The position numbers and the translations under genes were made by a program. A DNA stretch of 64,000 bases from assembly GCA_030149525.1 (NCBI GenBank), contig JASBRJ010000235.1:1-64000 (forward strand), in the 5' to 3' direction. Below, piece by piece: positions 3,336 to 53,286 of this stretch (position 1 is its first letter; each line of letters opens with the position of its first letter). This stretch comes from a bacterium. Lineage in GTDB: Bacteria; Vulcanimicrobiota; Xenobia; Xenobiales; JADMJV01. The notes under the pieces were generated by a model. It ran no database searches, was not told the DNA's origin, and saw nothing but the letters and a program-made list of their open reading frames with translations.

Positions 3336-5539
3336 GATTCTTGCTCCTTCTCGGAGACGACTCTGACAGGCACCGGTTCATGAAAATTGAGATCTCGTTG
3401 CGGGAACGGAATGGAAATGTTGTGCTCTTTGAACAGTTCGTCGATGTGAATGCGCACTTTGGTGCAAACACGATCCCGGTCCATGGGCGTGGCGACCGCT
3501 ACCCAGAAGTGAACGGTAAAGTTGAGCGAAGAGTCGGCAAAATCATCGAAGGTGACGATGGGACCGGGGTTTTTCAGAACTTCGTTGACGTCGTTGGCCG
3601 CCTGGCTCACTAGATCGATCACCTGCTGAGGAGAGCTTCCATAGGCAACCCCCACGCTGACTTTGGTTCGAATGCGGCTGTCTTCAAGAGTCCAGTTCAC
3701 GACCTTGTTTTCCAGCAGCACCGAGTTGGGCAGAATCACATGGATTCCAGTAGGGATTCTCACGCGGGTCGAGCGGGCGCCGATCTCTTCTACCACCCCG
3801 AGAGTGTCGTCTACTTCAACCATGTCGCCGGCACGAACCGGTCGCTCTACCATCAGAATGAGTCCGCTGATGAAGTTGTTGAGAATGTTCTGCGCTCCAA
3901 AACCGACGGCAATGGCGAGAGTACCACCCAGGAAGGTGAAGATGGTCAAAGGGATATTGACCACATGGAGGCTGAACAGGAAGACAAGTAAGATGAGGAA
4001 GTACCGGAGGAACCTCTCCAGATTGGCCTTCACGTTTTCCCGGATGGGAAGCACGCGTATCAGACGTGCACTAAGGAACTTGGTGAAGCGCCCTACAAAT
4101 CCCAGGCCCAGAATCAAGACAGTGACGGCAACGCACAGTTTGCCCACAGTGACGGCGCTGTCACCCATGGTGTAGAGTTCGATATTCCAGAAGTCCACTA
4201 GTGTTCCCCAGGCGTCACCGGCTCTCTCCCCAAGGGACCTCTGCTGATCTTGCAGAGTAAGTTCGGCCTGGAGGCGTTTGGCTAGAGAGGCCGTCTCTTT
4301 GTGGTAGGCCAGGAGATCTTCGATAGCTTTCTGGCGGTTGACCAGAGCCTGGATCTGAATTTCTCGCCATCGGTCGAGCTCTTGCTCAGATTCCTCCTCG
4401 TTGTTGAGCAGTCCGGAAAGAGTCCCTCGAATTTGAGTCAGTTCGGTATCTAGAACTTGGCGAGACTTGTTGAGTCGATTGAGGAGCCCCCGGGTCGACT
4501 CGAGCCACTCGGAGTAGTTGGTCGACCCCTGATTCTGGTGGGTGAGATAGCGCCACTCCCAAAGATCTCGACGGGAGAGAATGTATTCGAGTTTTTCCTC
4601 CAGCAGCCGGCGTTTTCGTTGGTGGGTCGTCACCCATTCTTGGCGTGCCGCAATTTCTGAAACTTGCTCGGAGTCGGGGATTCCGTCTTCCAGGAGAGTG
4701 TTGAGGCGTTGGCTGCTAACTTCTTCGGATTTTTTGAAGCTCTTGAGCCGTTCTGTTGCCTGGTCGCGGTCGGCCTCCAGGCTATCGAGCTGAGTTTGGA
4801 GGGTGGACTCGGAGAATCGGAAGCTGTCCTGGACGAGCTGGATCTTGAGTTGCAAAAGCTCCTGGCGCTTTTCAGCCAACTCCTGTTCGAGTTTGGAGGT
4901 CTCAAGCTCGGCTTGAGCGAGGTCGACTCCGCTTTGAGCAGCCTCTATGGCCACCATGGCGTTCTCAACTCGACGTTTCAGTTCCACGTCGCCCGGTGAA
5001 TCGTTGAGCCGGTCCAACAATCTTCTTCGCAGGGCTTGAAGCTTGGACAGCCTCTGACTTTCCAGATCCTCGGAGGTCTTGGCGGCGTTGGTGGCGAGGC
5101 GAGCCGAACGCAATTTCTCACCGGTAACGTCCAATTCGCTCTGCAGACCGTCCAGCAGAGCCACAGTGTAGGGCTTTGGGACGTCAAGCCCTCGCGAGGA
5201 AACTTCTTTAATCGCCTCGGAAACCTGTTCGCTCTCGGTCTTGATGCGGGCTTTCCCCTGTTCAAGAGTGATGAGACGACGCAGATTGACGTCGTAACGT
5301 TGCAGCGAGTCGACATAGCCGGGGGGGGCTTCCGGGTCGACCGAGCGCACGCTGAAGGGGGCTCCTTCCGGAGCCTCTTCCAAACGTCTCTGAACCTCCT
5401 GAAGCTTGTCTCTCAGTTCGGTGACCTTGTCGGAGGCCGTGGGAGAGGGAGTGGGAGAGGCGGTTTGGGCGAGACCGGGCAGGGCCAGCCAGAGTAGGCT
5501 GAGCAATATGATGAGTCGAAAGAATGCTCTGACAGTCAT
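3332..5539 (-). CDS. MscS-family mechanosensitive channel with long periplasmic coiled coil
   Basis: The 735-residue protein opens with a signal peptide (RAFFRLIILLSLLWLALPGLAQ) and a Ser/Thr/Pro-rich linker. It then has about 400 residues of charged heptad-like helix (roughly 35-440), as in large MscK/YbdG-type channels. Transmembrane segments follow near 455-480 and 500-550. The pore helix and beta domain carry the MscS hallmark GFGAQNILNNFISGLILMVE, then RAGDMVEV and LPNSVLLENKVVNW. Such channels release solutes on hypo-osmotic shock. Coupling to a glycan-branching enzyme downstream could link osmotic balance and carbon storage, but that is inference. Confidence 0.9.
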   Translation of the reverse strand: MTVRAFFRLIILLSLLWLALPGLAQTASPTPSPTASDKVTELRDKLQEVQRRLEEAPEGAPFSVRSVDPEAPPGYVDSLQRYDVNLRRLITLEQGKARIKTESEQVSEAIKEVSSRGLDVPKPYTVALLDGLQSELDVTGEKLRSARLATNAAKTSEDLESQRLSKLQALRRRLLDRLNDSPGDVELKRRVENAMVAIEAAQSGVDLAQAELETSKLEQELAEKRQELLQLKIQLVQDSFRFSESTLQTQLDSLEADRDQATERLKSFKKSEEVSSQRLNTLLEDGIPDSEQVSEIAARQEWVTTHQRKRRLLEEKLEYILSRRDLWEWRYLTHQNQGSTNYSEWLESTRGLLNRLNKSRQVLDTELTQIRGTLSGLLNNEEESEQELDRWREIQIQALVNRQKAIEDLLAYHKETASLAKRLQAELTLQDQQRSLGERAGDAWGTLVDFWNIELYTMGDSAVTVGKLCVAVTVLILGLGFVGRFTKFLSARLIRVLPIRENVKANLERFLRYFLILLVFLFSLHVVNIPLTIFTFLGGTLAIAVGFGAQNILNNFISGLILMVERPVRAGDMVEVDDTLGVVEEIGARSTRVRIPTGIHVILPNSVLLENKVVNWTLEDSRIRTKVSVGVAYGSSPQQVIDLVSQAANDVNEVLKNPGPIVTFDDFADSSLNFTVHFWVAVATPMDRDRVCTKVRIHIDELFKEHNISIPFPQRDLNFHEPVPVRVVSEKEQES

Positions 5540-9887: not shown

Positions 9888-12800
9888 GTGAACGCCGACG
9901 AACGAGCTATCAAGATCACTGTGGAAGCCGACGGCACCCCTGGAACAGCGGGTGCTGCGGGGAGAGGATATCTGCCCGGTCATTCCTCGCCGGGAGCGGG
10001 GAGTCGAGGCTCTGCCGGTCTTGACGGTTCTCCGGGTCACCCGGGAGGAGGTGCGGGTCAGGTGGCTGCGGTGCTTGAAACGCAACCCTCGGGGGAGGTC
10101 GTTCTAAGCGGATTTGCCGATGGAACTCCCACTGATCATAGATGGGATCCCAGGGAGGGTCGTCTGCTCCTATCGGCCCGCGGGGGAGACGGCGGTCAGG
10201 GCGGGGCGGGCGGGCGAGGTCAAGACGGCTCAGGCGGTTATCGCGGCGCCAACGCGACGCGTTATTCTTCCGGCGGCGACGGCGGCCCGGGAGGCGACGG
10301 TGGGCGAGGCGGCGCGGCCGGTCGGGGTGGTGACGCCGGACCGGGTGGAGAAGTCGTCCTGTCCCTGTCTTTGGATGATGCCGATCTGCTGTTGGGAGTT
10401 GACTGGGACGTTTCGGGAGGAACTCCAGGACCGGCCGGAAGGCCCGGCAGCGGAGGCAGTGGTGGCCCGGGAGGCTCAGGTGGCTCCTCCTACTCCTGGA
10501 CTGAGACCGAGTACTACACCGACAGCAACGGGGACACCCAGTCGCGCACCGTCAGTCGCTACAATCCTGGCGGCTCTTCAGGCCCCTCGGGGCGAAGCGG
10601 ACCTTCCGGTAGACCGGCGGCCGCGGGGTCTCACGCGCCCGACGGTGCCTTTTGCTTAAAGATTGACGGCAAAGACTACGCCGACCGCTTTCGCTTCGAA
10701 TGCTCCGGATATGAGGTGGGGCCCGGCGGCAAAGACGGCATTTTTGAGTTTGGAGAGCGCGACAATCGGGTGCACTCGGTACGGGTCAAGAACGTGGGCC
10801 CTTCGCCGACTCCATCTCGGAATGTGGTCTGCCATCTCACCGGAGATCACAGACTGGTGGTTGCCGGAGAGCGCTACGCCATCGGCTCTCTCCTCCAGGA
10901 GGAAAGCCTTCCGTTGGAAGAGTTTACTTTTCATCTAGAAGAGGCCCCGGAGTCCATGCTTCCCACCGAGCACAGCGTGCTTCGCCTCCCTTTCCATCTG
11001 GTTCCACGTCTCCACTTCTCCCGGCTGGACGCCCACGATCCTGAGTTCTTTCGCCCCGCGCACTTAGAGGTGACTTTTCCGGTGGAGTTGGAAACAGTTC
11101 TATCGGCAACCTCCGTGGTCGTAAGTGAGACCCTCATTCAGAATTGGAAACTCCACAATCGCTCCACCCGGCCCTTCCCTCCACCCGGCCGCGAGCTTTT
11201 GGTGGATTTGAGCATGGACGACGCCGGGGCGGGCTTTCTGGTGAGGCGCCCGGACGGTGAGGTTTTTGAGATCTGCCGGGAGCCCGCGAGGTATAAGAAG
11301 ATAGCGACCGTGCCACCGGGTGGATACGTGACCGTAACGGCTCATTTTGAAGCTCCCGAAGATTCAAAGCCCTACAGCAAAGCCACTGTTACGGCGGGTT
11401 TGAGACTCACTCCACAAGGCGGAGGAGAGCCCCGTCTCATTCAAAGAAATCCAACCCACTACAATCTCTCCCTGGCTTACGCCCAGCGCAGGCCGGATGT
11501 CTTAATGGTCGTCAATCACAGCACCACCTCCGAGGAGATGAGCAACTGGCTTGATCTCCTGGAGCGCCTCAATCTCACATGGGACGTCTGGGATCTGTCG
11601 CTCTACGGCCGACTTCCCCTCGACGAACTGGCAGAAAAGAGCCAGGGGAAGCTTGTAGTGGTCCTGGTGACAAGCTTTGAGATGCCCAATCGGGAAGTCA
11701 TAAGTCCGATGGCCCTTCTTGACTATGGAGCCTTTCGTCGCGCGGTCTCTCGCTTTGCTGTCTCGTTCTATTTCATCGGTGAGGAGTCCGGTATCCTGGA
11801 GCATCTAGTGCCTCAGCCCGCCGACGCCCGGGCATTTTCTTCCACCGACGAGTATCTGGCCCAACTGTCGGAGGAGGAACGGGTGAATCCCGAGGTGCCG
11901 GTCACTATGACCGAGAGATTAGACAAGATCGGAGTTTCCAAGTTTTTTATTAAAGGCAAGCCGCGCCCCGAGTATCTCCGTAAGAAGGGCCTTCAGCTTC
12001 TGGAGGAGTTGCGGCAACGGTTTCCCCAACGTCGTTTCGTGGTCACAACGATTTTCGACCCCTCCGACGACTCCGGTTGGCTCAAGAGCAAGAGTTGCGG
12101 AGCCCTCACTGTGCGATACATGCCGGACAAAGACGCCCGGGCCGTGGTCACTCGGAAGGTTTTCCGAGAGACAGCCCAGACGGCTCAGTTCCTGAACTCG
12201 GCAGAGAATCTCCTGGGGCTTTTTTCGGCTCAGGACTTTGACGACAAGCTCGAGTCTTTGCGGAAGTTGTCCAACGAGAGCACGAGTGATCTCAGCCCTT
12301 TTGAGAAGACGGTTCAACAGTCTCTGGCCGACGCATTCCTCATGGACCTCACTGAAGAGCAATTGGACCTGCGAAAGAGTGGGGTGCGTCTCAATGCCAA
12401 AAAGATGGCTTTAGCGCTCAATCGAACGGTGGAGTTTTGCGCCACTCGACTCTGCCCGCCTGAACAGCTCAATCCTCAATCTCCCCTGGGGGAAACCGTC
12501 TTGAGAATCCTGGCCGGTCTGTCTTTTTTGGCGGAGAAGAATATGGCCTGGTGGAACCACAGAATTCACTTTTTGGGGGGCGGTAACGACGTGGAAGTCA
12601 CCCTCTTCGTGAGAAATCAGGTGGATAAATTCCTTGACCACCATGTGGGCCCGGACCGCATCTGGGGCACCGGACCACTCCGAAGAGCTGTGGAGGCGCT
12701 GATGCAAGAGCGGCATAAGGTTCTCACCCAGAGGCAGCAACAGATCGCAGAGCATGCCGGCGGAGAGCTCTCCTCCAAACAAGCAGCGGGGGAGGCCCTG

Positions 12801-26894: not shown

Positions 26895-27332
26895 CTAAAA
26901 CTCACCATCCCCAGCAAGCAGGTTTTCAACGTCAACCAAATCCTGAGGCCGACCGGCGGCCTTCTTGGATGCTATCAGATCTTGCCTTGAAATGAGCGAT
27001 ACGTCGATGGATTTCCATTTCGCCTGTTCGCGACGTTGAAAAGCCTCTTTAAAATCGACCCCGTCGACGCGCTGCAATATATCTACGCGTACCGGAGGGT
27101 TCCCCATCCAGAGAACTTCACCGGGTTGGAGATTCCGGAGTGACTCCAACACGTGGCTTGGAGCGCCGAAGCTGGCAAGAGCCCGGTATACCCTGGCGAG
27201 GTTGTCAGGGGTAGAGTCGACTAGCAGGTCCAGGTCCTTGGTGAACCTGGGAGTAGCGTAGTAGCCGACGGCGTAGCCCCTGATCACCAGGTAGTCAACC
27301 TGCTCTCGAGCGAATACCGACAGGAGATCCAA
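26895..27332 (-). CDS. Nucleotidyltransferase of a two-gene toxin-antitoxin-like module (copy 1)
   Basis: This 145-residue pol-beta-type nucleotidyltransferase (AbiEii/MNT-like, DUF6036-like) has TKDLDLLV with the paired acidic residues, RVDIL with the third acid, and the typical C-terminal KKAAGRPQDLVDVENL. The usual GGYA nucleotide-binding turn reads RGYA here, which would be expected to harm activity. Its start lies inside the upstream partner gene. Copy 2 at 35015-35455 has nearly the same length (146 codons). Transfer of nucleotides to a target RNA or protein is the family role; the target is unknown. Confidence 0.8.
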   Translation of the reverse strand: MDLLSVFAREQVDYLVIRGYAVGYYATPRFTKDLDLLVDSTPDNLARVYRALASFGAPSHVLESLRNLQPGEVLWMGNPPVRVDILQRVDGVDFKEAFQRREQAKWKSIDVSLISRQDLIASKKAAGRPQDLVDVENLLAGDGEF

Positions 27333-28980: not shown

Positions 28981-29187
28981 CTAGCCAGGAGACCCTTGAT
29001 GCCGAGCTGCTCCAGGATACGAACCGCAATCTTTCGGTTCAGGTCGTTGTCTTCGACCTTGTTTGATGGCTTTCGTTTTGTCGAGGCGCTTTTCAAGCGC
29101 AGACAGCTCTTCGTCCAGATCTGTTAAGATTCCAGAGATTGCGGCCTGTTCATCTTCAGTAGGACACGGGACCAAGAGTTTCTTCAC
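28981..29187 (-). pseudogene. Remnant of a type I restriction specificity-subunit C-terminus
   Basis: The frame reads LLVPCPTEDEQAAISGILTDLDEELSALEKRLDKTKAIKQG, the conserved end of HsdS proteins (target-recognition domain exit and coiled coil). An in-frame TGA lies just upstream. After KAIKQ the expected LLTGxxRL is missing; a different frame continues with DLNRKIAVRILEQLGIKGLL. No hsdM or hsdR gene is present. It is a broken fragment, probably joined to a second unrelated fragment. Confidence 0.7.
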
Positions 29188-29242
29188 GTCTCACGTCAGG
29201 CCGGTTCTTTCTTTCCCCTCCCATTTATAGAAAGACCAGCTG

Positions 29243-29284
29243 ACCAGGTTCCAGTTTCCACCTGTTGATCTGGAACTGGTTTTC
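29243..29284 (+). terminator. Possible imperfect hairpin terminator
   Basis: ACCAGGTTCCAG (29243-29254) pairs imperfectly with CTGGAACTGGT (29270-29280), followed by TTTTCTT. The one-base bulge and missing strong stem make it a weak candidate. Confidence 0.35.
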
Positions 29285-29421
29285 TTCATCGCCGCCGTCG
29301 TTGTGTTGCCCACGGCTTTCCCAATTCTCTTTCTTCCCGGCAGACGAATGATGTGTAGTTAAGCAGTCAACGCCCACTCGGCCTCTACATGGCTCAACAC
29401 AGTAGTGGGTTTTCTTATTTT

Positions 29422-30315
29422 ATGAGCCCGAAACCTAGTCTCAGTCCCAAGCAGCAAGTCCAGCTTTTACAGCAGAGGGGGCTTCAAATTGACGACCCGG
29501 CGAAAGCTTAACAGCTGCTGACCTTCGTCAATTACTACGAGCTACGTGCTTATTTCATCCCATTCGACCAGGCGGGTCCCGGGGGCAGTCACCAATTCAA
29601 GTCTGGAACGACGTTCGACAAAATCTTCAGTCTTTACAGATTCGACAGAAAGCTAAGGATCCGTGTGAACGACATGCTTGAAAGGCTGGAGTTGGCAGTG
29701 AGAACTCGATGGGCCTTCGAGCTTTCACAACTCAAAGGTGGCCAGGCGCACGAGGACCCTGCGAACTTCACGCGTCGTGACATACACCAGCGCTCACTTG
29801 ATAGCCTGAAGGACAACTTTCAACGCAGCAAGGAACAGTTTACCGAACACTATAGGCTGAACTACCCTAACCTGACGACCCCGCCTATCTGGGTAAGCGT
29901 TGAACTCCTCAGCTTTGGGGACATTTCTTTCTGGTTTCGGAATACCAAGTCACAGGGAGTCAAGCGTCGCGTCTCTAGTTCCTTTGGAGGCTTCGAACCC
30001 GGTTTTTTCGAGGATTACGTGAAACAAGCTTCAACGGTTAGGAATATGTGCTCCCATCACTCGCGACTCTGGAACAGGGTACTCCCCTACACGCCAAGAC
30101 GGATCCGGAAGGGCAAATTTGACCGTACTCTCCTGAACAACGGGCGAACTGAGCTCGACAAGCTATATAATTTTCTTGCAATCCTCGCCTTCATAGCGAA
30201 TGAAATCTCTCCGGGCCACAGTTGGTGCGACCGACTGGTCGAATTCTTTGAGAAGGATGAAAGTCGGCTCTCTCAGATGGGTTTTCCCAAAGACTGGAGA
30301 CGAGCTTTCACATAA
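29422..30315 (+). pseudogene. Abi_2 (AbiD/AbiF-like) abortive-infection gene with an in-frame TAA
   Basis: From ATG 29422 the frame encodes MSPKPSLSPKQQVQLLQQRG, then a TAA at 29509-29511, then QLLTFVNYYELRAYFIPFD in the same frame. This is the family's standard N-terminal region. The rest is also typical: FDRKLRIRVNDMLERLELAVRT and STVRNMCSHHSRLWNR. Reading through gives 297 codons, the normal Abi_2 length. Without readthrough, translation could only restart at 29665 or another internal start and would lack the first third. Abi_2 proteins are phage-defence effectors. The first 22-bp repeat copy follows 17 bases after the stop. Confidence 0.8.
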
Positions 30316-30331: not shown

Positions 30332-30353
30332 TTGGCACACCATAGGCACACAT
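30332..30353 (+). repeat. 22-bp direct repeat, copy 1
   Basis: TT followed by GGCACACCATAGGCACAC and AT is identical to the copy at 35464-35485. It contains two GGCACAC units four bases apart. It lies directly after the Abi_2 reading frame. Confidence 0.85.
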
Positions 30354-30576
30354 TTCGAACTCTCGCTGTCGTAAGAGACCACAACCTCGCTCGAAACAAT
30401 GTAACAGCCACCACCGACGGAATGGCCGGGACGACCGATAGTTCCGAGCAAACCTCAGTAACCGCCACGAACAATCAAGTCACTGATAAAGGTCACGGCC
30501 GCGATGGACAGCAACCAGCGCCGACGGAACCCTGACAGTGCTGGGTAATACTCAGGATACAGAAGTGCCCAACTGG

Positions 30577-31035
30577 TTAGCGAATGACTGCGGGGCGACC
30601 CTGCTCCAGAGCCAGCCACGGTAGGCCCGGACCGTTTTGAAGAAAACCGGTCAAGGTTGCCTGGGACTGGCCGACGAGTCCGGTAGACGATACGCTGATA
30701 ATTCCATGAGAATTGAGTCGCTCGAGAGAGTATTCCACCACAAAACGTCCCGACAGATGACCGTCGGGCGAGTTGAATGATTCGCTGTAACTCAGAGGAA
30801 CACCGGTCTGCTCTTCCAGTGAAAGGGGAAAGGCGAAATCGTGGGCGACTTTGCTTCGAAAGTCTTCGAGGCCCGATAGCGCCATATTTCTGGCCTGAGC
30901 AAGCTCTGCAGTTCGAGCACCCAGAGACTTGGTGAGGTGCGCCCGGGTGAGAAGTGCCAAGGCTAAAGTCAGTATTACGGCAAGAAGTAGAAGAACAGTT
31001 ATTAAGGCGGCCCCGCGAGGCTTCTCAAACAGAAT
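30577..31035 (-). CDS. PilX/PulK-like membrane-anchored pilus-assembly protein
   Basis: The real N-terminus is upstream of the first ATG: the frame reads LFEKPRGAALITVLLLLAVILTLALALLTRAHL, a membrane anchor of the kind found in PilX-type proteins. AAGGAG lies eight bases before ATT at 31035; CTG at 31032 is the next possible start, and neither is ATG, GTG or TTG. The remaining 110 residues form a soluble domain without recognised motifs. It overlaps the PilW-like gene upstream, so expression is coupled. Confidence 0.55.
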   Translation of the reverse strand: MLFEKPRGAALITVLLLLAVILTLALALLTRAHLTKSLGARTAELAQARNMALSGLEDFRSKVAHDFAFPLSLEEQTGVPLSYSESFNSPDGHLSGRFVVEYSLERLNSHGIISVSSTGLVGQSQATLTGFLQNGPGLPWLALEQGRPAVIR

Positions 31036-31532
31036 GACCCGAACTCCTTTCTCAAGCTTTCCTTACGTTTTCCTAAAGTGACGACAAAGTGTCCTTCGGG
31101 GGCCCGCTCGGCTTCAAAACGATCCACTTCGCCCAGGCTTGCTGAATGATTTCTCAATCCCGTAACGCTGCGTTTGAGAGAGCTGCCTTGAAGAAAGAAC
31201 GCGACCTCTTTTCGAACGGAGGGTTGGCCGGGAGACCACGAGGCAGGTGGGCCGTCCGGCAGAAAATCCGGATGCTCCACGTCTGCCAGAGTAAAGCTAA
31301 GGTGAGGGCCGCTTTCTCCGGGACTCAGGTTTGTTTGAAGAGCTCCGTGTCCGTCGAGTTCAATTCTTTCTAGGATACTCAGGGCTGTCACTTTCCATGA
31401 GAGTTCGTCGGCTCGTCGCTCCACCTTGGCGAGATCCACCAAGAGACTTGCCGTCAGAACAAGCACCAGGCTCAGCAGCGCCAAGAGTAGCACGCTTTCG
31501 AGAAGAGAAAGGCCGGATCGGGCACGCCTCAC
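31002..31532 (-). CDS. PilW/PulJ-like prepilin
   Basis: The 176-residue protein opens MRRARSGLSLLESVLLLALLSLVLVLTASLL, a prepilin-peptidase cleavage site (G followed by LSLLE) and a 20-residue hydrophobic helix. The globular part includes KVTALSILERIELDGHGALQ. It is the second gene of a three-gene minor-pilin operon, with a four-base overlap to the upstream gene. Minor pilins prime assembly of type IV pili or type II secretion pseudopili. Confidence 0.75.
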   Translation of the reverse strand: MRRARSGLSLLESVLLLALLSLVLVLTASLLVDLAKVERRADELSWKVTALSILERIELDGHGALQTNLSPGESGPHLSFTLADVEHPDFLPDGPPASWSPGQPSVRKEVAFFLQGSSLKRSVTGLRNHSASLGEVDRFEAERAPEGHFVVTLGKRKESLRKEFGSFCLRSLAGPP

Positions 31533-32302
31533 CTGTCTAGTTCCAAGATGCCGGAGTCGACCGAGAGCGTTCGCCCAAAGTATCGAGTGGTTGCACGGAT
31601 CTTGCAGCTGCCCCCTGTGTGAATAACTGCGCCCGTGTCGTCTTTAGTCAGGTTCCTGAAGCTTGCTCGTTTTCCGTCTCTTGAGGCTAAGATTGTTCCC
31701 AGGCCCGTTCCTGGGATGACGTGGAACTGGAATGTTGCCGGAATTTCACTGTTATCTTTGGCCAGAAGATGAGCCGTCACGGAAACGGGAGCATCGGCGG
31801 GGACAGATGAACTCGGTAAGCCCCTGATCTCAATCGGGGGGTCGGCTAACTCAAGTTCCGGCCGAGTCAGAACTCTGGCTAATTTTACGTTCAGATTTTC
31901 TCGCCTGATTCTAACTTCCGCCAGAGCCGTGGTTCCCTGGAGACTTCTAGCTTCACCTCTGGAAACGAATGGTTCTTCGGCACTTGAGCACGGACTATAG
32001 CAAGAGGTTTGTTGCACGGTAATATCGATCTGAAATCCGTCTTTGGGAAAGCTCAAACCATCTTCGGCCAGCAAGTCGTCCCATCGGTTCTGTGCCGTCA
32101 TCGACGTCAATCGGTTGAGCTGAGCTTCAGCCTGGACCAGGGCTTCGGCCGTCTCTGCGGCCCCGGCAGCCCCCCTCAGGGCAACGCCAAAAACGCGTGA
32201 GAAGAGGAGAAAGACCCCTGCCAAAAGTGACGTGGCGATAACAATTTCGAACAAAGAGAGTCCTGTTTGAGGAAACCTTGCATTGATAATCTCGCGCACC
32301 AT
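31529..32302 (-). CDS. PilV/GspI-like prepilin
   Basis: TGLSLFEIVIATSLLAGVFLLF near residue 14 is a type IV prepilin cleavage site with glutamate at +5, followed by the hydrophobic stem. The rest of the 257 residues is beta-rich with paired cysteines (CYSPCS) and an Ig-like segment (VPADAPVSVTAHLLAKDNSEIPATF). It begins the minus-strand minor-pilin operon and is divergent from a large pilin fusion. Confidence 0.75.
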   Translation of the reverse strand: MVREIINARFPQTGLSLFEIVIATSLLAGVFLLFSRVFGVALRGAAGAAETAEALVQAEAQLNRLTSMTAQNRWDDLLAEDGLSFPKDGFQIDITVQQTSCYSPCSSAEEPFVSRGEARSLQGTTALAEVRIRRENLNVKLARVLTRPELELADPPIEIRGLPSSSVPADAPVSVTAHLLAKDNSEIPATFQFHVIPGTGLGTILASRDGKRASFRNLTKDDTGAVIHTGGSCKIRATTRYFGRTLSVDSGILELDR

Positions 32303-32443
32303 GACCCTGACTCATATTAGCGAAAAAGTATGGATTGAGCCAGCGAAGGCCCGGACGGCTTTGTTAACAGGCTTCAACACGACTTCGAACTCGTGTGTGA
32401 AACGGTTTGACATTTCCCATCTATGCTGGAGACTACGGTTTTC

Positions 32444-32452
32444 TGCTATATT
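32444..32452 (+). promoter_or_regulatory. Possible extended -10 promoter element
   Basis: TGCTATATT matches an extended -10 element 14 bases before the TTG start at 32467, leaving only a very short leader. A TTGACA at 32407-32412 is too far away to be its -35 partner. Low-confidence. Confidence 0.3.
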
Positions 32453-32466
32453 GAGACGGGGTTAAT

Positions 32467-34521
32467 TTGGTCAGACAGAAGAACTCATACGGCTTTAGCC
32501 TCTTGGAGGTTGCTATCGTGTTGGCGATTCTGTCTGCTGTTGGGCTGATTGCGGTGAACACCTTGGGTCGGTCGGCAGACAAGAGTCAGTCCAGAGCGGT
32601 TGCCCAAGAGTTGGCGCTCCAGTTGATAAATCAGAAGCAAGAGGCGGCTCGTACCGGCCTGGCCGTGGGAATGGCTTTCCCAGGCTCGGGAACCTTCGTA
32701 AGCCAGGGTTATTACCAGTTTCGAGGCCTCGGCACCCAGAGAATAGTGAGAATGAGAAGTCTGGGGGGAGAATATCCTGGGACGTTCATCACCTGGGGCG
32801 TTCACGGGGGGGAGACTTCGTCGGAATTTTCTCAGAATTCTTCGCTACGCCTCGATAGTCTGCCCGTCGACGACCCGGTTGTGGTTTTTCTGCCCTCGGG
32901 AGAGGTCTTAGCCCGAGGAGTGGCCGTCGAGCAAGACTACATCAAGCTTCGCGTTGGCTCTGACCCGCAAGGCGCCGGGGCAGCGAAAAACGCCGAAGTC
33001 TCAGGTATGAATGACTGCTGGACCGTGCAGATAAGCAGAGAGGGTCAGATCACAACAGAGGCGCTGCCTTCCTTCCCCTCGGGTCGCGCCGGTTCTCAAC
33101 CCGGTCTTGCCCGACTTCCCCAGCCGACCACCCAGGGTACCGCGCCGCCGGTTTTGGACAGTATCGTCACGCATCCGGAATTGGTGGCTAATCCGGATGG
33201 TTCCCTAAGAGTCTCTGGTCTCTCTACCCCGGTTCGCCTTGAAGCGAAGGCTGAAAGCCCCCAGGGAGACCCGCTTTTCATCCGCTGGCAAAGTGATGGT
33301 GGTCAGTTCACTCATTCCGGGCGGTGGCATCCCATGACCTATTCCACAGAAGATGACCGCTGGACCGCTTCGACTATGTGGTCTCTTCCTCCAGAACCCG
33401 ACGGTACTTATCGAATCCGGGTGGAGGTTCGTGATGAGATGGGGAATCTGGCTGAGAGCACCTCCGACAAAGAGGTGGAGGTTAGACCTGGCTCCGAGAG
33501 TCTCTGGTTGTTCTGCATGGAAACAGAGAATCTCCCGTCTTCGGGACCACGACCTGTCGGTGCGGTGTCATGGAATGTGGCCTTGAGAGCTGACGGCAGT
33601 TCGAAACTGAACATCACGAAACGGGGCGGACGGTTTATCTTTCCCTTTCTTGTTTCACCTAACGGGGAGCACGTTCTGGGAATGGAGCGAGTTTTTGTCG
33701 CTAATTCCTCGTATATCTTGCCCAGATTCTTCGGCATTGATGGAGCAGAAATTTCTTCTGGAACGTCGTCTCTCCAGCAATACTACGAACCGATTCGCTG
33801 GAAGTCGGACGGCACCGGTTTTTTTGCGTCCGCGTTGACCTCCGGCGTCGGTGGTCGCCTGGACTTTTTTGATTTCTCCGTGGAGACCGGCCAGGGGCAG
33901 TTGCTTTTCTCCATACCCACCAACACCACGAGCTTTAAGGTGGGGGCTGATAGAGATCTCAAGACCATTGTCTTTGCAGAAAAACCGCCTTGGGTAGGTG
34001 TGTCTGATACTCGCGGCCGAGTGAAAGTTTATCGAAGAGAGTCCAACAGCCTGAGCGAACTGATAGTCTATCCGGCAGGATACGATCACGCGCCCGGTAC
34101 GGCCATAAGCTCCAGTGGAAAATACGCGCTCACTATACCTCCTCCGCTCATGACCGGTGAGAAGGTTAGGCTTCACAATCTAGAGACCGGAGCGATTGAC
34201 GCTGAGTTCTCCTATTCTACCGGGCTTAGTGATTTCAAGTTTGGGCCTCAGGATAGGTATTTTTCTTACCGGAGCGGCGGCCTGACGAGCAAAAATCTTA
34301 ACTTGCTCAGGATGGACGGTTCACGAGCCTACCAGTGCGTAGATTGTGTATCTTCCGGATTCTCTCCAGACGGAGCCAGCCTTTTTGTCAGCAAAGCGAG
34401 CGGTGAACTCCTTCGGGTCAATCTCTTGGATTTCAGCGAAGAAAGGGTCAGGGGCCCCGGACCGAAACCGCTTACCATTTTGGATGTGGCTAGCGTCGCC
34501 GATGATCGACTTTTCAGATAA
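32467..34521 (+). CDS. Pseudopilin fused to Ig-like and beta-propeller-like domains
   Basis: The TTG start gives YGFSLLEVAIVLAILSAVGLIAV, a GspH/FimT-type prepilin signal, and a pseudopilin domain to about residue 180. A proline-rich linker follows. Next is an Ig-like domain near 235-340 (ending DEMGNLAESTSDKEVEV). About 340 residues of repeated strand sequence then follow, such as SPNGEHVLGM, DRYFSYRSGG and SPDGASLFVSKASGELL, which look like a WD40/beta-propeller. At 684 residues it is far longer than ordinary pseudopilins (about 170). It could be a tip adhesin carried by the pilus. Confidence 0.75.
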   Translation: MVRQKNSYGFSLLEVAIVLAILSAVGLIAVNTLGRSADKSQSRAVAQELALQLINQKQEAARTGLAVGMAFPGSGTFVSQGYYQFRGLGTQRIVRMRSLGGEYPGTFITWGVHGGETSSEFSQNSSLRLDSLPVDDPVVVFLPSGEVLARGVAVEQDYIKLRVGSDPQGAGAAKNAEVSGMNDCWTVQISREGQITTEALPSFPSGRAGSQPGLARLPQPTTQGTAPPVLDSIVTHPELVANPDGSLRVSGLSTPVRLEAKAESPQGDPLFIRWQSDGGQFTHSGRWHPMTYSTEDDRWTASTMWSLPPEPDGTYRIRVEVRDEMGNLAESTSDKEVEVRPGSESLWLFCMETENLPSSGPRPVGAVSWNVALRADGSSKLNITKRGGRFIFPFLVSPNGEHVLGMERVFVANSSYILPRFFGIDGAEISSGTSSLQQYYEPIRWKSDGTGFFASALTSGVGGRLDFFDFSVETGQGQLLFSIPTNTTSFKVGADRDLKTIVFAEKPPWVGVSDTRGRVKVYRRESNSLSELIVYPAGYDHAPGTAISSSGKYALTIPPPLMTGEKVRLHNLETGAIDAEFSYSTGLSDFKFGPQDRYFSYRSGGLTSKNLNLLRMDGSRAYQCVDCVSSGFSPDGASLFVSKASGELLRVNLLDFSEERVRGPGPKPLTILDVASVADDRLFR

Positions 34522-34878
34522 ACAGGGAGACATGATAACGGAGTCTCCGTGAAGTTGGCCGCCTCATTTCCCCTGGGGGATTCTTGGATTGATATGCACC
34601 TGGCGAAGAAAGAAGTCTATTTGTGATATAAGGATAGTCTAGGTTGAGCTGGGATCTGCTAGATGGTCAAAACGTTCCAAGATAGCACAATCGTTGACCT
34701 GATTTCTGTAAAGGTCGTCTTTTGAGGCGTGAGTAGTTTGAGACGGGCTGGACAAGTTTGAGTCAGTGTCGACTGGACTTCGACGGAGACGTAACGGCTT
34801 CGCCTTGAACACCGCAAGCGGCTTGTGGCACACAAGCTGCAGCGAGGGTCGAGGGCGGCTGCGTCGAACTCTGTTCAT
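34522..34878. other. Intergenic stretch with no recognised gene
   Basis: I see no convincing coding frame, hairpin terminator or RNA here. It lies between the pilin fusion and the second partner/nucleotidyltransferase module. Confidence 0.4.
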
Positions 34879-35067
34879 ATGGGAATTTCAAAGGTCGTCA
34901 AAATCGTAAAGATGTCAGAGCAGAAGAGCGATTTCGAATTTTGGCAGACCAGAACTGTTGCGGAGCGTCTTTCCGCATTGGAAGAAATTAGAGCGGAGTA
35001 CCACGGCAAGGATTATGAATCTCAACGAGGACTTCAAAGAGTTTTAAAAATTTCTAAACTCGAATAA
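34879..35067 (+). CDS. Small partner protein of nucleotidyltransferase copy 2
   Basis: From the ATG at 34879 the product reads MGISKVVKIVKMSEQKSDFEFWQTRTVAERLSALEEIRAEYHG and ends YESQRGLQRVLKISKLE. This is the usual short partner preceding this nucleotidyltransferase family, probably its antitoxin or partner subunit. An in-frame ATG at 34825 would add 18 residues of poor match. It overlaps the nucleotidyltransferase frame by 53 bases. Confidence 0.75.
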   Translation: MGISKVVKIVKMSEQKSDFEFWQTRTVAERLSALEEIRAEYHGKDYESQRGLQRVLKISKLE

Positions 35068-35455
35068 CGTGAGATATCTTGTGATTGGGGGTTACGCAGT
35101 CGCGGCTCACGGTCACGTTCGCTACACGAAAGACATCGACGTCTGGATAGAGCAGACCGAAGCTAACAGCGAGCGAGTAATGCGCGCCCTTGAGGAATTC
35201 GGCTTTGGTTCAATCGGTCTTTCATCCTCAGATTTCTTGGCGCCTGATACCCTCGTTCAGTTGGGGTATCCGCCACGCCGAATTGACTTGCTGACATCAC
35301 CATCAGGTGTCACTTTCGAAAATTGTTATGAGAATCGCATGACAGTAGAGGTCGATGGGACGACTATTCCTTTTATTTCACTCAAAGACCTTAAGGCTAA
35401 TAAGGCGGCTTCCGGGCGACCGAGGGACTTGGCGGATATTGAAGACCTATCTTAA
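35015..35455 (+). pseudogene. Nucleotidyltransferase (copy 2) with an in-frame TAA at codon 11
   Basis: ATG at 35015 begins MNLNEDFKEF, then TAA at 35045-35047, then KFLNSNNVRYLVIGGYAVAAHGHVRYTKDIDVW in the same frame. The catalytic GGYA turn, DID and RIDLL acids, and the C-terminal KAASGRPRDLADIEDL are intact. Read through, it is 146 codons, against 145 for copy 1. Without readthrough, GTG at 35069 could restart translation and still keep GGYA and the acids, losing 18 residues. It is either a nonsense allele or a shortened protein. Confidence 0.8.
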
Positions 35456-35463
35456 CGAGAAAC

Positions 35464-35485
35464 TTGGCACACCATAGGCACACAT
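35464..35485 (+). repeat. 22-bp direct repeat, copy 2
   Basis: Identical to the copy at 30332-30353, in the same orientation. It lies nine bases after the nucleotidyltransferase stop. The two copies enclose about 5.1 kb with the pilin genes. Confidence 0.85.
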
Positions 35486-35713
35486 CACTCAGCGGGTGAG
35501 GCCGTGAATCCCGCAACCACGGGCTTCCTCGAATTAGGACTCGATTCTGGCAAAGAAAGGATTCATGGGGTTTTCCGCCACGATCTTCCCAGTAATAAGG
35601 TGCTCTTCGATGACTTTCCCTTCATGACTCCGCAGCGAGGCAGCGACTCGCCGATTATCTTGCGCCAAGCCCAGTTGAGCTTCCCTAATCTCCGCCAGGT
35701 CAGCGTTGGCGGT

Positions 35714-50931: not shown

Positions 50932-53286
50932 ATGGCGAAAAAATCAGTCTCAACAGAAAGACGTTCGAAAGAACGCGAAACTTCCAAGAACGGAGCGATC
51001 CGAAAACCGGACGACATCTTCCGCGAATTCCGGGAAGACCGCGAACTTCTCGCGGAGTTGGCCGAGAAGCTCCCCACCACGAGCAGCTCGGAAGAAGTTT
51101 TAGATCTCGTATTCGATTGCGTGATGTCTCATCAGGGTTGGCCTTATGCGTCGGAATGGCGTCTGGATGAGGATTCTGAGAAGCTTTGTTTCGTGAGGGA
51201 TGTGGGAAGCACGACAGCCGGATTTGAAAAGGCCACCCACTCCACTGAATACGGGCATGGAGTCGGTCTCTGCGGCGGCGCTTGGAGTCAGATGGATGTC
51301 GTTCATGAAGTCGATCTCGCCGATAGTAACTGCATGCGGGCCGAAGCGGCCAGTCGAGCGAAAATGGGAAGCGCTGTCTGCTTTCCCCTGATTATGAACG
51401 GAGAGTTCGTGGGCGCTCTGGACTTCGTGGAGAAGGGCCACAAGATCGTCTCCCAAGACCGGGAGGAGACTTTCCGACACATATCTCGTTTGGTCAGTGG
51501 TCGACTGGAGCAGTTGGCTAGGCAGAGCGAGGAGTCTGGCTCCGGCTCTGAGGTAGACGATCTCCTACTCATGGATTATCGTGGGCAGATCGAGGGGATC
51601 AACGCCACCCAGGCGGTCATCGAGTTTGAACCGGACGGAACGATCATTCGTGCTAACGACAACTTCCTGATGGCACTCGGCTATCGGCTGTCCGAAGTCA
51701 AAGGCGAGCACCACCGTATGTTTGTTGATAACGACTACGCACGCTCCAAAGAATACCAGCTCTTCTGGGAGGAACTCCGCCAGGGCGAAGCCCACACCGA
51801 CGAGTTTAAGCGTTTCAGAAAAGACGGCGAGCCGATCTGGATTCAGGCCAGCTATACCCCTATCAAAGACATCAGCGGCAAGGTCTTCAAAGTGGTGAAA
51901 TACGCCTCCGATGTGACCGAGCAAAAACTCAAGAATGCGGACTTCCAGGGGCAGATCGAAGGTATCAATGCCGCTCAAGCGGTCATCGAATTTGAACCCG
52001 ACGGTACCATCCGATTTGCCAACCCGAACTTTCTGACGACGGTGGGTTACTCGCTTCAAGAAGTTCAGGGTCAGCACCACAAGATGTTTATGGAGCCGGA
52101 GATGCGCAACAGCTCCGCTTATCGGAACTTCTGGCTGGGCCTCGCCCAAGGCAAATCGCAGGTTGGCGAATTTAAGCGGGTAGGAAAGGGCGGTCGAGAG
52201 ATCTGGATCAGCGCTTCCTATACTCCCATTCGCGGCTTGGACGGCGAGGTTTACAAGGTGGTCAAGTATGCCACCGACCTGACTGAACAAAAGGTTCGTG
52301 AAGCGGAGATGGCTCGACGTGAGCGTGAGGCCGCCGATGAGTTGGCTAAAAAGGTCAGTTCCATTATGGAGACGGTCAGATTGCTTGAGACGGGAGATCT
52401 GACAGCCGAGATTAAGGTGAAAGGCGACGATCCTATCGGGCGAGTGGGCAGAGGTTTGCAAGCCTTCGTAGACCGGTTGCGCGAAAGCATCGCCACGGTA
52501 ACCGAGAACTCCGTCACATTGGCTTCGGCTTCTGAAGAACTCAGTGCCTGCGCCGCGCAGATGACGGCCTCGGCCGACGAGTCGTACGCTCAATCAGGAG
52601 CTGCCCTGGAGGCGTCGGAGGGCGTGAATAGCAATATTCAAACCGTCGCTACCGCCACCGAAGAGATGGCCGACAGCATCGTGGAAATCTCCAAGAACGC
52701 TAACCAGGCTGCCCGGGTTGTTTCCAAGGCGGTGGAAGTGGCTAACGATACCAACGTGACGATTTCGAAGCTGGGAGATAGTTCCATCGAAATCGGGAAC
52801 GTGGTCAAGGTCATTACCTCCATCGCTCAGCAGACGAATCTTCTCGCTCTCAACGCCACTATCGAGGCGGCGCGAGCAGGGGAAGCAGGACGGGGATTTG
52901 CGGTCGTAGCAAACGAGGTTAAAGAGTTGGCCAAGGAAACTGCGAAAGCGACAGAAGATATTTCGGCCAAAATCCAGACCATTCAAGAAGACAGTGACGG
53001 AGCGGTGAAGGCTATCCACGAAATCACCACCATCATCGATGAAATCTCCGGTATCGCCGATTCGATCGCCGGTGCGGTGGAAGAGCAGTCGGCTACTACG
53101 ACCGAGATGAGCCGAACGGTGGGCGAAGTGGCACGGGTCTCCTCGGAGATTATGACTTCCGTGTCTCAGGTCAACGAATCCGTCGCTATGAGCAAGGCCG
53201 GCGCCGGCGAGAGCCTGTCGGCAGCGAAGGAACTGGCTCAGATGGCCAGTCACCTCCAAGCCCTGGTGAACCGATTTAAAGTATAA
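50932..53286 (+). CDS. Soluble methyl-accepting chemotaxis protein (GAF-PAS-PAS)
   Basis: ATG at 50932 follows AAAGGAGGAG, an ideal ribosome-binding site. The 784-residue protein has a GAF domain near 40-205 ([36 protein letters not shown]). Two tandem PAS/PAC units follow near 215-335 and 340-455 (IEFEPDGTI...[14 protein letters not shown]). A HAMP-like linker leads to the MCP signalling domain with the tip [37 protein letters not shown]. No membrane segments exist, so it is cytoplasmic. The two PAS units are highly similar, suggesting internal duplication. Confidence 0.93.

Follow-up and report, generated by a model that had tools for sequence, protein, structure and literature searches.

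The question raised by this locus is why one and the same 22-bp sequence, TTGGCACACCATAGGCACACAT, stands directly behind two damaged genes of the defence type. The locus is part of a stretch of 64,000 nucleotides, called the window below, in which the 22-mer occurs at 30332-30353 and at 35464-35485, on the + strand at both places. In the first-pass annotation of the window, the copies were described as identical and as having a GGCACAC-CATA-GGCACAC internal structure. Both statements are borne out, the genome-wide form being GGCACAC-YATA-GGCACAC. The distances of 17 and 9 bases behind the stop codons are each one off; the actual distances are 16 bases for the Abi_2 gene (stop 30315) and 8 bases for the nucleotidyltransferase gene (stop 35455). 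Small islets of anti-phage or toxin-antitoxin genes that were probably once mobile are proposed here as the answer, in an uncultured bacterium that very probably belongs to Candidatus Eremiobacterota.

The repeat and the longer element R

An identical pair of 22-mers is expected ~1e-4 times by chance in a random sequence of 64 kb. When up to two mismatches are allowed, GGCACACNNNNGGCACAC has a mean of 0.33 matches per shuffle, while the window contains two perfect ones. The two 22-mers are thus real and beyond chance. Alignment of the flanks of the copies in the genome revealed that the 22-mer is the first part of a conserved element of ~90 bp, named R. This element consists of GTT-GGCACAC-YATA-GGCACAC-AT, a YAACCA block ~50 bp later and a core ~82 bp from the start, which reads TGGCGAA or, as the complement, TTCGCCA. 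This core is short, and its sequence varies between TGGCGAA, TGGCAAA and TTCGCCA.

In the genome of 8.27 Mb, the 18-mer with at most two mismatches has 7 matches, compared to 0 for a reversed-pattern control. A profile search with the whole element finds 10 confident R copies (E <= 1.5e-9), with the restriction that, of the seven copies used for training, six are full ones and match by construction. There are two copies each in the window and on contigs C83, C123 and C288, and single copies on C155 and C26. The element is intergenic, and some of the genes next to it run in the opposite direction. In the window, no match to an Rfam family was found.

On C123 and C288, one R each is split by an insert of ~65 bp (CGCGCAAGGCTCTG...GTCGGGA), which interrupts the second GGCACAC (locus L021 on C123, ~4740-4830; locus L072 on C288, ~10815-10890). 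Part of this insert recurs inverted behind int in C288. The insert is a small, nested repeat in its own right. A separate palindromic repeat, ATTTCCCCTGGGGGA (at most one mismatch), is found at 26 places in the genome, with 0 for the reversed control, and is often clustered; its places include contigs C44 and C355 and window positions 34566-34580. Two of the copies are located immediately to the left of R-type cores. It was considered as a target motif left of these two cores and rejected, as it is a genome-wide repeat (26 matches) that is mostly unrelated to R.

Two units in the window

The features around the two R copies of the window are as follows.

28981..29187, - strand: frame resembling the C-terminal end of HsdS (type I specificity subunit), by our own reading of its translation (MKKLLVPCPTEDEQAAISGILTDLDEEL...)
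29194..29308, + strand: sequence that stands behind the int stop codon at other loci, int being absent here; 76.5% identical to the int 3' flank of C83 over 115 bp, with a weaker match to C288
29422..30315, + strand: Abi_2/AbiD abortive-infection gene, cargo of unit 1 (Pfam Abi_2 5e-30; PADLOC AbiD 4e-39)
30332..30385, + strand: R element 1, truncated (alignment, BLAST to C83, profile match)
34601..34607, + strand: left core TGGCGAA of unit 2 (attL-like), within 34591-34611 (core-consensus scan)
35015..35455, + strand: DUF6036 nucleotidyltransferase gene (toxin-antitoxin-type), cargo of unit 2 (Pfam DUF6036 1.4e-9)
35464..35557, + strand: R element 2, complete (attR-like; alignment, profile, core scan)
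35555..35620, - strand: remnant of a relE toxin 3' end (HRRAPYYWEDR), start of a third unit (81% over 114 bp to C83 across the R junction; translations)

The HsdS-like frame breaks off where the shared int flank begins. Pfam gives no match for this frame, its likeness to HsdS being drawn from the translation; in C83, hsdM is present on the corresponding side. The match of 29194-29308 to the sequence behind int in C83 and C288 makes it probable that the Abi_2 unit goes back to an element that once carried int and has since lost it. In R element 1, conservation ends at CCACAAC (~30385) and the core side is missing. R element 2 has the arm-type pair at 35466-35483, the YAACCA block, and a core TGGCAAA at 35548-35554. 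A scan for the 21-base core consensus with up to four mismatches finds only two places in the window, i.e., the core of this R and 34591-34611, and none in 20 shuffles. The two cores are on the same strand, 947 bp apart (34601 and 35548), and bracket the nucleotidyltransferase gene as attL and attR would. A fuller copy of the unit represented by the relE remnant follows R in C83; the relBE unit thus stands behind different neighbours in C83 and in the window.

Both cargo genes had been reported as damaged by TAA codons, and early in-frame TAA codons are indeed found at 29509-29511 in the Abi_2 gene (ATG at 29422) and at 35045-35047 in the DUF6036 gene (ATG at 35015, preceded by a short frame to 35067). 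As both genes carry stops, the two units are decayed and may be fossils. The annotation had offered separate insertions as an alternative to a single enclosed segment, which turns out to be the right geometry: the two copies lie on the same strand, each forming the right end of a separate, independent unit. Therefore, the segment of 30.3-35.5 kb with its pilin genes is not one cassette, and the best reading of the pilin genes between the repeats is that they are resident.

Elsewhere in the window, a small nucleotidyltransferase-like frame lies at 26895-27332 (- strand), beside which no R copy was found. At 51583-52292, there is a tandem repeat of ~350 bp with 67.5% identity, perhaps reflecting protein domain repeats.

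Cargo, arrays and cores across the genome

The first-pass annotation had suggested a search for the 22-mer across the genome and its relatives. This search shows the repeat beside accessory defence and toxin-antitoxin genes, both here and in sister genomes; the copies are neither scattered at random nor limited to two sites without comparable context. Besides AbiD/Abi_2 and DUF6036 in the window, the neighbours of R are DUF5615 on C155 and, on C26, DUF6036 near HsdS and PDC-M30A. Two-unit arrays with a core after each R are found on C83, C123 and C288. Read in the orientation of R, the C83 array consists of xis-int, Gabija GajA-GajB, R, relBE (reversed) and R. On C123, the order is core, DUF433-DUF5615, R, AbiEii (reversed) and R, the left core copy having 1 mismatch. 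On C288, xis-int is followed by PDC-M02B with a small gene, R, AbiEi-AbiEii and R. In the sister genus, a zeta/ParD pair, a PDC-S02 gene, a CHAT protein gene and nucleotidyltransferase genes occur near R, together with some neighbours that have no recognised defence role.

A direct-repeat core is present at both ends of the nucleotidyltransferase unit in the window, of the C123 array and of the islands of sister-genus genome G003 described below. The core scan did not find a left core for the Abi_2, C26, C83 and C288 units. Occurrences of TGGCGAA/TTCGCCA near int in C83 and C288 were discarded, as they lie inside the xis or hsdM coding sequence. The integration target in this genome is not a tRNA.

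A co-occurring integrase family

The association of the repeat with a recombinase, another point of the annotation, was found in the form of xis-int modules in the genome, and this co-occurrence, together with the accessory defence and toxin-antitoxin genes next to the repeat, supports the attachment-like reading over chance. One Int family has six matches in the genome, of which two are pieces of one broken gene and one is a distant relative (40%). In each of five sister-genus genomes, at least one match is found, while the contig of the window has no Int match at E 1e-20. Related xis-int modules are intact on C288, interrupted by one TAG on C83, present on C393 and broken into two pieces on C364. 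They lie upstream of two arrays, i.e., those on C83 and C288. The integrase gene ahead of the Gabija array on C83 (L020, 12413-13747) is presumably inactive because of its in-frame TAG.

The intact Int of C288 comprises PF14657 (Arm-DNA-bind_4), SAM-like and catalytic domains. Its solved structural relatives include the Int protein of 6emy, which we take to be the Tn1549 integrase, and, weakly, lambda Int. A gene for an HTH_17 (Xis-like) protein precedes the int of C393, which is near-identical to the C288 int. On C393 (L133, 1263-8371), the DISARM-type genes DrmD and DrmMI (PADLOC E = 0) adjoin xis-int, the Int there being 96% identical to that of C288. On C364 (L134, 700-2450), a frame-broken int, a hairpin and a diverged R stand in succession with no gene between them, possibly an emptied unit. 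The right flank there resembles that of the C26 copy.

The same motif in other lineages

A search of GTDB genomes that used the alignment of Int gave relatives in other lineages, and 14 from outside this family were compared (185 kb). In six of the 14, a paired repeat with the 11-bp period is located 8-64 bp past the end of the int match or its stop codon, and in these same six, a tRNA 3' end begins 65-90 bp downstream of the start of the pair. They are a Syntrophomonadaceae, a Dethiobacter, an Alicyclobacillus, two Clostridia and a deltaproteobacterium. Their pairs read (G/C)GCACAC-N4-(G/C)GCACAC, with one mismatch in the deltaproteobacterium, and the Dethiobacter copy and one Clostridia copy contain TTGGCACACTATAGGCACACAA, which is almost the window sequence. 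By chance, 0.002 pairs with one mismatch are expected close behind int, and an exact pair is expected 0.02 times anywhere in the 185 kb. The spacing between the pair and the tRNA end matches the 82 bp between the arm pair and the core found here. The remaining eight relatives have no pair close behind int; two of these have a pair near a tRNA and six show no pair. In the acidobacterial L166 and in the Bryobacteraceae L177, the pair lies ~65 and 79 bp from the tRNA end, respectively. In L166, int is internal, with a second pair far on its other side.

The arm sites of attP are usually located beside int. The presence of the pair beside int and tRNA 3' ends in other lineages indicates that the repeat very probably supplies the arm-type portion of the attachment site used by this integrase family. 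Phage relatives of Int (~31% identity) have pairs that are similar but not identical, and a scan of viral contigs for the motif returned only simple tandem repeats or unrelated context. G003 has two regions of ~32 and 54 kb that are flanked by pairs of like orientation, the spacer being YATA on one side and TTTT on the opposite side. These islands hold xis-int and defence genes and share a common core, CATTGCGAA. This geometry is that of an integrated element with putative arm sites on either side of the core.

A hairpin beside the integrase gene

One or two hairpins of ~85 bp follow the xis-int module; in the sister genus, they also precede it, as inverted repeats of ~300 bp. The regions concerned are the following.

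L136: 5986-6273 and 3551-3855
L137: 7014-7312
L138: 3374-3552 and 5619-5800
L134: 2006-2098
L020: 12182-12272

In 13 copies, many of them closely related, 11 of the 21 base pairs are changed on both sides, which exceeds all 500 shuffles and every slid register, the structure being derived from the same alignment as the covariation test. Rfam has no family for this hairpin. Cargo genes start right beyond the hairpins.

Proposed explanation and alternatives

The units are probably decayed defence islets without an integrase of their own, similar to cis-mobilizable elements (CIMEs) and accreted in tandem, with R as the arm-plus-core half of the Int attachment site. R would be one half of the site used by a tyrosine integrase with an N-terminal arm-binding domain. 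GGCACAC-N4-GGCACAC, with its 11-bp period, would serve as a pair of arm-type Int-binding sites, and strands would be exchanged at the TGGCGAA/TTCGCCA core, ~82 bp from this pair. A defence or toxin-antitoxin gene or operon would sit between the left core and R. Most units lack an integrase and would act as CIMEs, open to being moved by a related xis-int element, either in trans or through accretion. If integration took place again and again at one core, head-to-tail arrays with a single core between neighbours would result. Binding of Int to the pair, the exact crossover point, excision and integration, and mobilisation in trans are steps that we infer from the sequences.

An organisation similar to that of an integron was considered as well. 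R would then be the analogue of attC and the region behind int that of attI, and Int would capture and shuffle single defence cassettes. The arrays of single genes or operons with one R after each, the int gene and conserved structured region at the head of two of them, and the toxin-antitoxin-rich cargo known from chromosomal integrons agree with this idea, although the same organisation is also compatible with tandem accretion. However, the arrays hold two units only, with some genes reversed; the single-strand folds of six R copies are no better than those of shuffled sequences (z ~0), without an attC-like hairpin; and Int scores 61.7 bits against TIGR02249 (integron integrase), far below the cut-off of 265, having an arm-binding domain instead. 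Because of the missing attC fold and the low score, the system is not an integron, and the integron-like explanation is improbable. A broader version, in which Eremiobacterota would have an integron-like cassette economy, is doubtful as well, if somewhat less so. It would combine a phage-type integrase with single defence or toxin-antitoxin genes that each carry a double-stranded attachment site and are captured singly into arrays, the covarying hairpin beside int being part of the platform.

It is very improbable that R is a transposon end or a MITE-like repeat, such as a terminal repeat bound by a transposase, which picked up genes by chance. A repeated element of ~90 bp that contains internal repeats and borders cargo could be of this kind, and an IS110 transposase gene lies near the C155 copy; yet the units end in a core-type direct repeat rather than an inverted one, in other phyla the motif stands next to Int genes and tRNAs, at the position of attP, and differing cargo has only R in common. 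Direct repeats with an 11-bp period are also typical of regulator sites. The intergenic position of R would suit a regulatory or terminator element behind defence genes, but R also borders oppositely oriented genes, has no Rfam family and no stable fold, and the core repeats and the int/tRNA context would be left unexplained, making this the least probable of the explanations.

If the units are indeed CIME-like islets, GGCACAC-N4-GGCACAC plus the core offers a sequence handle to find minimal defence islets without their own integrase. It could be used to trace how systems like Gabija and AbiE, DISARM-type genes and small toxin-antitoxin genes are packaged in this way, and bears on the assembly of defence islands, here in a poorly studied phylum. 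In the open-access literature, no paper was found that describes these elements in Eremiobacterota.

Comparison with known systems

Phage integrases and those of the Tn916/Tn1549 type have direct repeats as arm sites beside int in their attP (PMC8074189). The paired direct repeats adjoining int and core resemble these, and similar pairs with an 11-bp period occur right after int in the phages Exiguobacterium vB_EalM-137 and Paenibacillus Bloom. Here, in contrast, the arm pair is retained by cargo units without int. With sedentary chromosomal integrons, the units share the arrays of small toxin-antitoxin and defence units with a recombination site after each, but differ in the lack of an attC fold and in the integrase subfamily.

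CIMEs, as described for the tandem accretion of ICEs and IMEs, lack integration genes, keep their att sites and stand in tandem at a shared site (PMC5704250). The absence of an integrase, the retained att-like sites and the tandem placement are found here as well. However, the present units are much reduced in size, in many cases to a single defence or toxin-antitoxin gene in ~1 kb, they occupy several non-tRNA places in one genome, and their mobility is presumed. The islands at ssrA in Dehalococcoides are a close precedent, being tandem and bounded by direct repeats with extra conserved sequence; 15 of them lack an integration module and were proposed to be CIMEs (PMC3146451). Their repeat is the 3' end of ssrA and their cargo consists of reductive dehalogenases, and a figure legend of that study discusses recombinases of the Ccr type, whereas the units described here carry defence and toxin-antitoxin cargo at non-tRNA sites and are associated with an arm-binding tyrosine integrase.
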